64,000 bases of DNA. It comes from Pyramidobacter porci. Lineage in GTDB: Bacteria > Synergistota > Synergistia > Synergistales > Dethiosulfovibrionaceae. Below the pieces are notes generated by a model. It worked only from the letters and a program-made list of their open reading frames with translations. It was not told where the DNA came from and did not search any database. The DNA lies in assembly GCF_009695745.1 (NCBI RefSeq), contig NZ_VUNH01000007.1:1-64000 (forward strand). Direction: 5' to 3'. Below are positions 25,256-49,723 of this stretch, piece by piece. Positions within the stretch are counted from its first letter, which is position 1, and each line of letters opens with the position of its first letter. The position numbers and the translations under genes were made by a program.

Positions 25256-25284
25256 TTGACAGAATAAAAGCTTTTTGGTTTAAT
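25256..25284 (+). promoter_or_regulatory. Strong sigma-70 promoter of the attenuated transporter operon
   Basis: TTGACA (25256-25261), 17-base spacer, TTTAAT (25279-25284). Transcription would start near 25291 and run through a leader peptide and two terminators before the first structural gene at 25580. Confidence 0.85.
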
Positions 25285-25333
25285 GCATGCCATACGTCGG
25301 ACACGACAAAACTTTTGGAGAGGAGTTCACGCC

Positions 25334-25429
25334 ATGTCGCTGCTTCATCGAAACAATGCGCTCGTGCTAAGCCTGACGACTGCGGATCTCTGCCGGAGTC
25401 GTCGTGGAGGCGTGGCTTTTGCCGGATAA
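25334..25429 (+). CDS. Leucine-rich leader peptide (attenuation control)
   Basis: This is a 31-codon open frame with a GAGAGGAG ribosome binding site, starting ATG TCG CTG CTT and ending TAA. The product begins MSLLHRNNALVLSLTTADLC and ends in RSRRGG-VAFAG. Five of the first 17 residues are leucine, with valine also present. It lies between a strong promoter and two intrinsic terminators, the classical layout for ribosome-mediated attenuation in branched-chain amino acid operons. Low charged leucyl-tRNA would stall the ribosome and favour read-through into the transporter genes. The mechanism is inferred from layout. Expression of the peptide is not shown. Confidence 0.65.
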   Translation: MSLLHRNNALVLSLTTADLCRSRRGGVAFAG

Positions 25430-25465
25430 TCCGCCGGCAGCCGCCTGTTGCTGACCGCACTTTGC

Positions 25466-25497
25466 GCCGGGATCCCGTGACGGAGGTCCCGGCTTTT
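25466..25497 (+). terminator. First attenuator terminator
   Basis: gccggga (25466-25472) and tcccggc (25487-25493), with an inner ccg/cgg pairing, followed by TTTT. It lies 37 bases after the leader-peptide stop. Confidence 0.7.
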
Positions 25498-25508
25498 GCG
25501 TCTCCCCT

Positions 25509-25546
25509 GCGCCGGGACCTCCTTTATGGAGCCCCCGGCGCTTTTT
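25509..25546 (+). terminator. Second attenuator terminator
   Basis: gcgccggg (25509-25516) and cccggcgc (25534-25541), with an inner ctcc/ggag pairing, followed by TTTTT. Its left arm shares the gccggg core with the first hairpin, so the two can compete by alternative pairing. Confidence 0.75.
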
Positions 25547-25579
25547 GCGGCATTATTTATCCATCGGGGAGGAAACAAC

Positions 25580-25735
25580 ATGAAGAGAGTGGAAAAACGC
25601 GTTCGTCCGGATTGCCGGCACAAGTTCCCGCGCTGTTTTGTCGTCGGTCAGAAGATCTACATGACCGAGAGCGGCCGTTTCGTGATGTACTCGTCAAACG
25701 AGATGAACTTGAAGGAGGCGGGTCGCCGTGGATAA
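25580..25735 (+). CDS. Small basic protein of unknown function (51 aa)
   Basis: This is a 51-codon gene with GGGAGGAAAC upstream of its ATG, located between the attenuator and the transporter gene, whose GTG start lies inside its last codons (8-base overlap). The product is basic and begins MKRVEKRVRPDCRHKFPRCF, with two cysteines, then VVGQKIYMTESG. No membrane segment or known domain is seen. The overlap implies translational coupling to the transporter, so it may be a small accessory or regulatory protein, or mainly a coupling frame. Confidence 0.6.
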   Translation: MKRVEKRVRPDCRHKFPRCFVVGQKIYMTESGRFVMYSSNEMNLKEAGRRG

Positions 25736-26945
25736 GAGGAGCGGCGTTTCCGGAACCGTGCCTTTCTCCGTATGTTTCTCGGTCGGCGCCGTGCTTTTCA
25801 GCTCGCATGCCGGCGGCGGTTTCGCCTCGGGCAACCAGGCGTTCCAGAATTTTGTCACTTCCGGCTGGCTCGGCCCGTTCTCCGCCGTCTTCTGCATGCT
25901 GATTTTCACGCTGACGATCAAAGAGGCCATGTTCATGTACAACAGCCGCCGGCTGACCAGCTACAAACAGCTCTTCGAAACGCTCTACCACCCTTTCGGC
26001 CGGATCGAGATCTTCTTCGAGGTCTTCTTCTACATCATGGTGCTCATGGCGGTCGGCGCCGCGGTGGCAACCGCAGCAGCCACGCTGAACGCGTATTTTC
26101 CCTTCGGCGGCGCCAGCTATTACTGGTATGTCGTCGCGGTCGGGACCGCGGTCATGTTCTGCACGATCTTCGGCGCCGGTCTGGTGCGCAAGGCCTCGAC
26201 GATCATGGGCCTGGGCATTCTCATCAGCGCCGTTGCCATCTTTGTCGCCGGCATTTTCAAAGCGCCTCACCTGGCCCGGGAATTCGCCGTCAGCTACGCC
26301 TCCGACGGATTCTCCAAGCTGCCTCGCGCCGTCTGGATCGCCTTCAACTACGCCGGTTTCCAGTGCGTCGTCATTCCCACCATGATCGTCTGCGGCACGC
26401 CGCTGACCAGCCGCCGCGCCTGCGCCAGATCCATGCGGATCTCCTTCGCGCTGAACGCCGTGGCGCTGGCGCTCTCGGTGATCATGCTCACCGGCTGGGC
26501 GCCCGTGTTCACCGCCCTTCCCAAAGGCGCGACGATCCCCACGCTGACCAGCTGCCGCGCGATGGACATCCCCTGGCTCTCCGGCACTTACACGGTCTGC
26601 CTGCTGCTCTGTCTGATCTCCACCGGCGTGACCACCGTTTTCGGATTCACGGCCCGCTTCGAGAAGATGAAAATCTTTTCCGGCATCGAGAGCGCTCCCG
26701 TGCGCTGCGCTTTCGTTTCCGGAGCGATCATCGCCGCGGCTATGACCGTCTCCATGGCCGGGTTGACCAACATCATCAAGTACGGTTACGGCTACTGCGG
26801 CTACCTGGCCATCGCCATCGTCGTCGTGCCGTTCCTCACCGTGGGGGCGTACAAGAATCGCCGTTTCGTCAGGGAGCATCCCGAATACGACGGGCGCGAG
26901 GGCAGCTCTGTCGAAACGGCCGTGACGGCCGCGGCGGGGGACTGA
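25728..26945 (+). CDS. YkvI-like membrane protein, probable amino acid transporter
   Basis: This 405-residue protein has about 10-11 membrane segments. The N-terminal FSSHAGGGFASGNQAF resembles the glycine-rich first helix of YkvI-type (COG3949) proteins, which share the LeuT-like fold of sodium-coupled amino acid transporters. The start is GTG at 25728 with AAGGAGG at 25712-25718. The upstream leader peptide rich in leucine suggests control by a branched-chain amino acid, which in turn suggests such a substrate (inference). It overlaps the 51-residue gene upstream. Confidence 0.75.
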   Translation: MDKRSGVSGTVPFSVCFSVGAVLFSSHAGGGFASGNQAFQNFVTSGWLGPFSAVFCMLIFTLTIKEAMFMYNSRRLTSYKQLFETLYHPFGRIEIFFEVFFYIMVLMAVGAAVATAAATLNAYFPFGGASYYWYVVAVGTAVMFCTIFGAGLVRKASTIMGLGILISAVAIFVAGIFKAPHLAREFAVSYASDGFSKLPRAVWIAFNYAGFQCVVIPTMIVCGTPLTSRRACARSMRISFALNAVALALSVIMLTGWAPVFTALPKGATIPTLTSCRAMDIPWLSGTYTVCLLLCLISTGVTTVFGFTARFEKMKIFSGIESAPVRCAFVSGAIIAAAMTVSMAGLTNIIKYGYGYCGYLAIAIVVVPFLTVGAYKNRRFVREHPEYDGREGSSVETAVTAAAGD

Positions 26946-27149
26946 CGCGGGATCTTCGCAAGAATATCTGGCTGTTTTTAAAAAGCCGGACGCAAGGGAG
27001 CTCCGAGGGAGCGCCACAAAGCGAACCGCGCGGGCGCGGCAGCCGGGGGAGTCCCGAGCGACTGAACTCTCTCGCATCTCCCGGCAAACGGTGTTGATTA
27101 CGTCCGATCGAGAATCAGCACGAAACGAAATCAAAGGAGCGCGTATTCA

Positions 27150-28229
27150 ATGAAAAGAACTTTATTTCCCGGCTACACCATTGGCACTGACGCCTACAGA
27201 GACATCGTTGCCATCTGTTCCGCCTGCGGGCGCAGAGCCGTGATCATCGGCGGCAAGCGGGCCCTCGCGGCCGCGGAGGCAAAAATCCGCGCCGCCGTCG
27301 AAGCTTCCGCGATCTTCATCACCGACGTACAATGGTACGGCGGCGAAGCATCGCTGGAAAACATCGAACGGCTGGCGGCCATCCCCTCTGTGCAGGCGGC
27401 CGACATGATTTTCGCCGTCGGCGGCGGCAAAGCCATCGACACCTGCAAGGTGCTGGCGCACCGCACCAACCGCCCGTTCTTCACGTTCCCGACGATCGCT
27501 TCGACCTGCGCTTCCTGCACCAGCCTCGGTATCCTGTATCATCCCGACGGCTCGCTGCGCGAGTATTCGTTCTCCAAAGTCCCCTGCCGTCATATCTTCA
27601 TCGATCCGCAGATCATTGCCGACGCCCCCGCTCAATACCTCTGGGCCGGCATCGGCGACACGATGGCCAAGTATTACGAAAGCACCACGTCGTCGCGCGG
27701 GTGCAGTCCCGAACATTCCGACGCCATGGGCATCTGCATGAGCGCCATGTGCGCCGAGCCCATGCTGAAATGGGGCGCTCAGGCCCTGAAAGACTGCCGC
27801 GCCCATGCCGTCACCGCCGCACTGACCGAGGTCATTCTCGGCATCATCGTCTCCACCGGCCTGGTCTCCAACTTCGTACAGGTCGATTTCACCACCGGCG
27901 CCGCCCATGCGATGTACAACGGCTTCACCGTTTTGCCCGAAGTCGAAGAGAACGGCCATCTTCACGGCGAGATCGTGGCCTACGGCATCCTCATCCTGCT
28001 GCTGATGGACAAACGTCTGGACGAGTTCGAGAAAGTCTATCGATTCAACCGCACGATGGGTCTGCCTACGTGCCTGAAAGATATCAACACCGCCGAGGAC
28101 AGAGTTCCCCAGGCGGCCGACAAGGCGCTGAAAGGCATCGACGTACGCGTCTACCCCTACGAGGTCACCAAGGACATGATCATCGCCGCCGTCCGCCAGC
28201 TCGAAGAGTACAGCGCCGCGAACAGATAA
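27150..28229 (+). CDS. Glycerol-dehydrogenase-like (GldA/HcxA family) metal-dependent dehydrogenase
   Basis: This 359-residue protein has the iron-containing-alcohol-dehydrogenase fold of the GldA branch. The NAD-binding stretch is FAVGGGKAIDTCK. Metal ligands are the aspartate of GIGDTMAKYYE and the histidines of GAAHAMYNGF and HLHGEIVAYG. The FPTIASTCASCTSLGI segment matches glycerol dehydrogenase and the HcxA/YbdH 2-oxo-acid reductase group. The substrate could be glycerol, another diol, or a 2-hydroxy acid. It has AAAGGAG upstream, lies 204 bases downstream of the YkvI-like gene with no clear terminator between, and ends in a strong terminator. Confidence 0.85.
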   Translation: MKRTLFPGYTIGTDAYRDIVAICSACGRRAVIIGGKRALAAAEAKIRAAVEASAIFITDVQWYGGEASLENIERLAAIPSVQAADMIFAVGGGKAIDTCKVLAHRTNRPFFTFPTIASTCASCTSLGILYHPDGSLREYSFSKVPCRHIFIDPQIIADAPAQYLWAGIGDTMAKYYESTTSSRGCSPEHSDAMGICMSAMCAEPMLKWGAQALKDCRAHAVTAALTEVILGIIVSTGLVSNFVQVDFTTGAAHAMYNGFTVLPEVEENGHLHGEIVAYGILILLLMDKRLDEFEKVYRFNRTMGLPTCLKDINTAEDRVPQAADKALKGIDVRVYPYEVTKDMIIAAVRQLEEYSAANR

Positions 28230-40335: not shown

Positions 40336-40607
40336 GAAGACGAACCTCCTTTGCCGCCGGAGGACTTACGAACGCCTCCGGAAGTTACGCCCTGATTCTA
40401 GCAGATGGAAAATGCCCGCACATGAGAGAAAACAACAATTCTTTGGACGGCTGGGGGCCGCCGCCGTTCGTCTTCTCTCCCGCGTCTTTTCGGCAGCGCG
40501 AAATACAACACTGAAACTTGAACCGACTTTTTCCTTCCGAACGTTTCTTTTTGCCCTCTTGAGGTGGATTCGAGAGAATTTTTATTGTAGAATGAGAAGC
40601 CATGATA

Positions 40608-40702
40608 TGCAGTTTCAGCCCGGGGAATTTGGTGAAAGACCAAAGCGGCCCCGCCACTGTGAGCGCGTTGCGCGCGAGTCAGGATACCGGCCTGAAACGG
40701 GG
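40608..40702 (+). ncRNA. Cobalamin riboswitch aptamer (compact form) upstream of mutA
   Basis: The B12-box AGTCAGGATACCGGCC and the core blocks GGGGAATTTGGTGAAAGACC and GCGGCCCCGCCACTGTGAG fit the cobalamin riboswitch consensus. A closing stem pairs gtttcag (40612-40618) with ctgaaac (40692-40698). The distal arms between the CACTG block and the B12 box are very short (gcgcg/cgcgc), so it is a compact variant. A TAGAAT -10 lies at 40588-40593. It precedes the adenosylcobalamin-dependent mutase genes by about 120 bases. Confidence 0.88.
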
Positions 40703-40711
40703 GGAACAGAG

Positions 40712-49223: not shown

Positions 49224-49470
49224 TTTTCAGCTCCCATTTCACGTCGGAGATTGTGTCACGCAAGAGACGGAATGCTCGAACCATACCACATGGCGGCGCA
49301 ATTGAAGGACGAGTGCCGCCTGAGTTTACGATAAATTATTATAAACGATTCTTTTGAGCTGCGCTTGCAGACCGATCACGACTGCAGCGGAAAGAGCCGT
49401 TTGTTTTTCTTGCCGACCGGTGGGGCGAAGAGAGATTTATGCTATAATCTGTGCCGGAACCCAATTGAAT

Positions 49471-49648
49471 AATCAGCACGGTTCGAGACTTTTCCAGTTT
49501 CGATCAAAAAGGAATCGGGTGAGAATCCCGAGCGGTCCCGCCGCTGTAAAAGCCCCGCTTCTCCATGCGCCACTGTGAGCCCCGCGCTCATGGGAAGGCG
49601 GAGAAGGCTCCATGGGCTTGAGCCAGAAGACTTGCCGCGCTGAGCACA
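49471..49648 (+). ncRNA. Cobalamin riboswitch aptamer (full-size) upstream of the CoA-transferase gene
   Basis: The core blocks GGAATCGGGTGAGAATCCCG and GCGGTCCCGCCGCTGTAA (49511-49549), the GCCACTGTGAG block (49567-49577), GGGAAGGCGG (49592-49601) and the B12 box GAGCCAGAAGACTTGCC are all present in consensus order. A closing stem pairs tcagcacgg (49473-49481) with ccgcgctga (49636-49644). A TATAAT lies at 49443-49448. This is the long, canonical architecture, unlike the compact aptamer at 40608. Confidence 0.93.
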
Positions 49649-49723
49649 AAAAAGTTTTCGCGAGCGACGGAACGTGTGTGCTGCTTTCAGACCTTTCTTT
49701 CTGATTGAGGCCCCGGCAGCGGA

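Follow-up and report, generated by a model that had tools for sequence, protein, structure and literature searches.

A predicted leucine-responsive transcription attenuator ahead of a 51-residue protein and a membrane carrier in Pyramidobacter porci, and its relatives in the Synergistota

Genes and features of the locus

Within the 64,000-nt stretch of Pyramidobacter porci DNA that was analyzed as a whole, hereafter the window, positions 25256-25546 hold an attenuator region made up of a promoter, a 31-codon leader ORF, a hairpin, and 2 tandem intrinsic terminators. Behind the terminators is the gene for a 51-aa protein (25580..25735), the first gene under the attenuator, and then the gene for a 405-aa polytopic membrane carrier (25728..26945), which starts with GTG, overlaps the 51-aa gene by 8 nt, and has its Shine-Dalgarno (SD) sequence inside that gene. 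An Fe-type alcohol dehydrogenase gene of the glycerol-dehydrogenase-like kind lies further downstream (27150..28229). These features and all parts of the leader described below are on the forward (+) strand.

The promoter claimed in an earlier note on this DNA, TTGACA-17-TTTAAT, is present at 25256..25284 and is kept in 2 other Pyramidobacter genomes, G001 and G003. When both strands of the window were scanned for TTGACA with a -10 hexamer matching at 5 or more of 6 positions at a distance of 16-18 nt, this was the single site found; our generic promoter scan skips it because an A is demanded at position 2 of the -10 hexamer. The leader ORF and its good ribosome binding site were likewise described correctly: the ORF occupies 25334..25429 and encodes MSLLHRNNALVLSLTTADLCRSRRGGVAFAG, and its ribosome binding site, GGAGAGGAG, is at 25317..25325. 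Sixteen SD-preceded ORFs of 15-40 codons occur in the window, and only the leader ORF contains a CTA codon. The RNA from 25295 to 25590 is more stable than its dinucleotide shuffles (z -3.96).

Alternative pairings in the leader RNA

Hairpin 1:2 (ACGACT-g-CGG ... CCG-g-AGTCGT; 25376..25402) lies inside the leader ORF. Its covariation score across the related leaders is 0.378, against 0.204 for shuffles and no more than 0.152 for slid positions, and 84.8% of cells are paired; these figures flatter the hairpin, the covariance-model alignment having been fitted to this structure and being made up of related rows. Segment 2, the antiterminator strand (GGATCTCTGCCGGAGT; 25384..25399), can also pair with segment 3 (ACTTTGCGCCGGGATCC; 25459..25475), which doubles as the 5' arm of terminator 1. 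The 2:3 pairing in the window joins GGAUCUC-U-GC-CGGAGU with ACUUUG-C-GC-C-GGGAUCC at -19.5 kcal/mol, with 1.2% of shuffles as good. In folds made with a stalled ribosome and with the 3' arm of the terminator not yet transcribed, segments 2 and 3 pair in the window, in G001, and in G003. Since segment 3 was chosen only after this fold had been seen, the independent support for 2:3 comes from the leuA leaders of other Synergistota, where core and terminator arm change together (GGATCTCCGGA/TCGGGGATCT, GATTCTCCG/CGGGGAATC, and GAATCTCCGG/CCGGGATTC). A duplex test of the window core against a shorter terminator arm was not significant. The computed antiterminator 2:3 shares bases with hairpin 1:2 and with terminator 3:4, so that folding of alternative structures finds it in competition with both; the mutually exclusive helices 1:2, 2:3, and 3:4 are those of a classical attenuator.

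Terminator 1 (3:4; 25464..25497) has a hairpin at 25464-25493 of -21.1 kcal/mol followed by TTTT, and terminator 2 (5:6; 25509..25546) has a hairpin at 25509-25541 of -24.8 kcal/mol followed by TTTTT. As the earlier note had it, both hairpins contain GCCGGG and can pair in an alternative way, and the computed cross-pairing 4:5 (25481..25522) joins 25481-25493, the 3' arm of terminator 1, to 25509-25522, the 5' arm of terminator 2, in 12 continuous base pairs. At -27.9 kcal/mol it is stronger than either terminator alone and is equaled by 0 of 1000 shuffles. The same pairing is weaker in G001 (-22.5 kcal/mol) and G003 (-18.7 kcal/mol), where 4-5% of shuffles are as good, and the leuB and leuA leaders apparently have a single terminator. 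Terminator 1 of the window has only 4 Ts and is weaker than in the relatives. Formation of 2:3 would favor 4:5, and both terminators would then be lost together; we infer a cascade of this kind, 2:3 and then 4:5, as the coupling between the 2 terminators.

Related leaders across the Synergistota

The leader of the window was found again by DNA search of relatives in G001 and G003, which keep the promoter, the ORF, the hairpin, and 2 additional hairpins, and in which the 51-aa protein has a 53-aa homologue. Covariance-model searches, with a first model of 5 leaders and a second to which 3 further members were added, and with all matches read in context, recovered 29 related leaders from 27 of 188 Synergistota genomes. 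These precede leuA (18), leuB (2), the 51-53-aa protein (3), or a different protein of 53-56 aa (6). The leuA-type leaders come from 2 genera of family f3, and where contigs stop soon after the leuA start, leuA was recognized from its first residues only. The leuB leaders are second leaders, one in G003, first seen as a near match to the core, and one in G001, and both LeuB proteins pass TIGR00169 (487-488 bits, cut-off 353). An SD-preceded start is present in 29/29 leaders; in L108 the likely start gives 30 codons. By this comparison, the element is one of a lineage of predicted branched-chain amino acid (BCAA) attenuators in the Synergistota that have leuA and leuB as their usual targets. 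The lineage is thereby documented together with a covariance model that finds its members.

Rfam leaders and riboswitches, T-boxes included, gave no match to the element, the best scores being below the gathering score and on other stretches, and the leader core was not found in viral contigs. Nine candidates (L063, L066, L069, L070, L072, L073, L080, L084, and L113) were dropped for want of the leader-terminator-gene layout. Near matches to the core in G056, G156, and G158 were taken as chance, L027 adjoining a ribosomal-protein-like gene, as was L038 in the genome of the window itself.

Leucine codons and the signal

The putative regulatory codons CTC GTG CTA AGC CTG (25361..25375) stand directly before hairpin 1:2, and CTA (25367-25369 in the window) is in frame just before the covarying hairpin in all 29 leaders. 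Conservation of Leu codons among relatives, which the earlier note offered as a check, is thus borne out. CTA is otherwise rare, accounting for 1 of 509 Leu codons in 12 window genes and, among sampled leuA genes, for 6 of 458. The Salmonella leu leader likewise uses CUA, and exchanging CUA for CUG lowers its sensitivity (PMC1183508). Some leaders have few Leu codons, with 2 before the hairpin in the G001 leuB leader, and the 6 leaders of the sister genus g2 carry Ile, Val, and Leu codons. The presence of leuA or leuB downstream of 20 leaders is a link to leucine that does not depend on the codons, so that in these sequences codon content and gene context agree on leucine. Comparison therefore lends strong support to the earlier proposal of ribosome-mediated attenuation by leucine, with CUA in 29/29 leaders, a covarying hairpin and antiterminator, and leuA or leuB behind 20.

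The RSRRGG end of the leader peptide, for which the earlier note suggested the same check, is not conserved: relatives have RSRFCR, and others read the same RNA core in another frame. The leuB leaders differ in frame from the window, yet have Leu codons in frame right before the hairpin. Judged from these alignments, the core is conserved as RNA and not as peptide. This bears on the idea of an arrest peptide whose R-S-R, resembling the '+x+' motif, would make the ribosome stall when it meets a drug or metabolite, as macrolide-inducible leaders do, and in which the Leu codons would be incidental. CRSR is indeed kept in the 3 small-protein leaders of Pyramidobacter. We regard this as extremely improbable, since the other 26 leaders lack R-S-R or have it in a different frame, whereas CTA is in frame in all 29, and since most targets are leuA or leuB. 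Conservation as RNA would in turn be expected if the core served to bind a protein or ligand, with translation of the leader irrelevant, and there is the precedent of a Streptomyces ilvB leader that resembled an attenuator but in which codon changes were without effect (PMC1262725). Such a binding role is also very improbable here, given a rare in-frame Leu codon and an SD-preceded start in every leader, 2 pairings of the core that account for its conservation, and no Rfam riboswitch or leader match. Attenuation governed by translation of leucine codons remains the reading that we follow below.

Small proteins behind the leaders

Homologues of the 51-aa protein occur in exactly 3 of the 188 Synergistota genomes (the window genome, G001, and G003), always behind the same leader. 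The ORF is under purifying selection, with dN/dS of 0.16-0.37 among the 3 species, and very probably encodes a real protein. No relative was found in viral contigs, and the AlphaFold model is weak (pLDDT 60). The 53-56-aa family is found in exactly the 6 g2 genomes that have the Ile/Val/Leu leader and nowhere else among the 188 genomes; its members (L106:1639-1809, L120-L125) share the pattern AEEF.GPFVGYTLCDP.PQERRFAA.FEVNSVRYRGPFEG.R. Homology between the 51-aa and 56-aa proteins found no support by hhalign. What stands out most is that a single bacterial family has 2 different small-protein families, each seen only behind leaders of this kind. A tentative explanation, which we hold to be possible but somewhat less than probable, is that in Pyramidobacter and its sister genus BCAA attenuators have been freed from biosynthesis and drive stand-alone, starvation-induced regulators of 51-56 aa, that of the window acting with or on the adjoining amino acid carrier.

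The 51-aa unit of G001 and G003 lies beside a methylmalonyl-CoA mutase-like locus with a cobalamin riboswitch, which is not so in the window. The window has cobalamin riboswitches at 40548-40709 and 49462-49653, the first preceding a methylmalonyl-CoA mutase-like gene.

The carrier and the dehydrogenase

The carrier had no match in Pfam, NCBIfam, or PDB, and the label YkvI-like given in the earlier note found no confirmation in these libraries; its AlphaFold model is weak (pLDDT 42). Its nearest relatives, in G080 and G074, are 58 and 60% identical over the match, and in both genomes the carrier has a homologue of the Fe-type alcohol dehydrogenase as its partner and no leader. In G001 and G003 (82-83% complete) the carrier was not found behind the leader nor elsewhere. 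As these 2 genomes have only the small protein behind the leader, the carrier would be a later addition, and we conclude from gene order among relatives that the carrier/dehydrogenase pair came to stand behind the leader/small-protein unit in P. porci. The gap between carrier and dehydrogenase is wider than those of G080 (30 nt) and G074 (65 nt), a difference explained by a dispersed repeat at 26978-27118. This repeat has 28 similar places in the same genome, and its copies are mostly 110-140 bp with 70-80% identity. On Paraclostridium plasmids, a Glu/Leu/Phe/Val dehydrogenase is found near a carrier of 35% identity, a weak hint.

The earlier note had the leader govern the carrier and give a direct clue to its substrate. 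The first part holds in so far as the carrier gene overlaps the 51-aa gene behind the leader, and is weakened by the occurrence of the leader without the carrier in G001 and G003. The second part does not stand: since the carrier is absent behind the leader in relatives, its substrate is not directly readable from the leader, and with the closest carriers in a leaderless dehydrogenase pair the clue is an indirect one.

Neither a LeuB match nor a LeuA match was found in the window genome (98.4% complete), the latter with a 150-aa query that found LeuA in 5 of 8 g2 genomes. One copy of the leader was detected in this genome. The organism may thus lack leucine synthesis by the usual route, in which case uptake would have to meet a leucine shortage. 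A carrier under a leucine switch fits leucine uptake, a fit by which the substrate is not yet proven. The regulatory leader thus appears to have been put to use with new genes in a genome that gave no match for its usual targets.

The missing LeuA and LeuB matches, the weaker terminator 1, and the leaderless carrier/dehydrogenase pairs of G080 and G074 could also be expected if the link between attenuator and 51-aa gene were only evolutionary, with carrier and dehydrogenase owing most of their expression to other sites, or if the unit as a whole were a remnant, in decay, of a leu operon that has been lost. We consider this unlikely. The carrier gene begins within the end of the 51-aa gene, which also contains its SD, the generic scan (A required at -10 position 2) found no promoter-like site at the carrier start, and the leader promoter, core, and pairings are intact.

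Proposed mechanism

We propose with high confidence, from the observed parts of the leader, their conservation and covariation, and the gene context, that 25256-25546 works as a transcription attenuator of the ribosome-mediated type, senses charged leucyl-tRNA, and steers the 51-aa and carrier genes. Sensing would take place mainly via the isoacceptor for the rare CUA codon. When leucine is ample, the ribosome would pass CUC-GUG-CUA-AGC-CUG, hairpin 1:2 could form, terminators 1 (3:4) and 2 (5:6) would form, and transcription would stop. When leucine is scarce, the ribosome would stall at CUA/CUG and cover the 5' arm of hairpin 1:2, leaving segment 2 (GGAUCUCUGCCGGAGU) to pair with segment 3 (ACUUUGCGCCGGGAUCC), which would block terminator 1. 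Once freed, the 3' arm of terminator 1 would form a helix with the 5' arm of terminator 2 and so disarm terminator 2 too, letting RNA polymerase continue into the 51-aa gene and the carrier gene that overlaps it. The position of the leader before both genes hints that both belong to a leucine-shortage response, and we infer that small protein and carrier would act in uptake or its control.

Comparison with known leucine attenuators

The leu attenuator leuL of Salmonella and E. coli resembles the leader described here in having rare CUA codons for Leu ahead of the helices 1:2, 2:3, and 3:4, which compete with each other, and its target, leuA, is also a target of the leaders in Synergistota relatives. 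Unlike leuL, the window leader precedes a 51-aa protein and a carrier and has 2 cross-pairing terminators, and no sequence relation between the two is shown (no Rfam match). The Staphylococcus aureus ilv-leu operon is reported to have a leader peptide rich in Leu codons and transcription attenuation of BCAA genes (PMC5794164), and differs in being a biosynthetic operon of a Firmicute. The LEU element of Actinobacteria, upstream of leuA, has a run of Leu codons and a pseudoknot pairing with the leuA SD (PMC1262725). The leaders of our relatives likewise place Leu codons upstream of leuA, but the window leader is a switch of hairpin, antiterminator, and intrinsic terminator.

For histidine genes in Synergistetes, HisR DNA sites have been reported. 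No BCAA attenuator with a leader peptide was found for Synergistetes in the full-text literature, a coverage outside which most subscription journals fall. The mechanism is of the well-known leucine attenuator kind, and its lineage and targets appear to be the new part, a literature search of this scope being no proof of novelty. With 2 unstudied small-protein families and a carrier linked to leucine supply, their function becomes directly testable.

In G001 (L056:2718-5069, minus strand), leuB stands under its own attenuator and is followed by a predicted 410-aa multi-pass transporter, and G003 shows the start of this transporter too. With this leuB-transporter arrangement, a carrier is seen for a second time downstream of a leucine attenuator.
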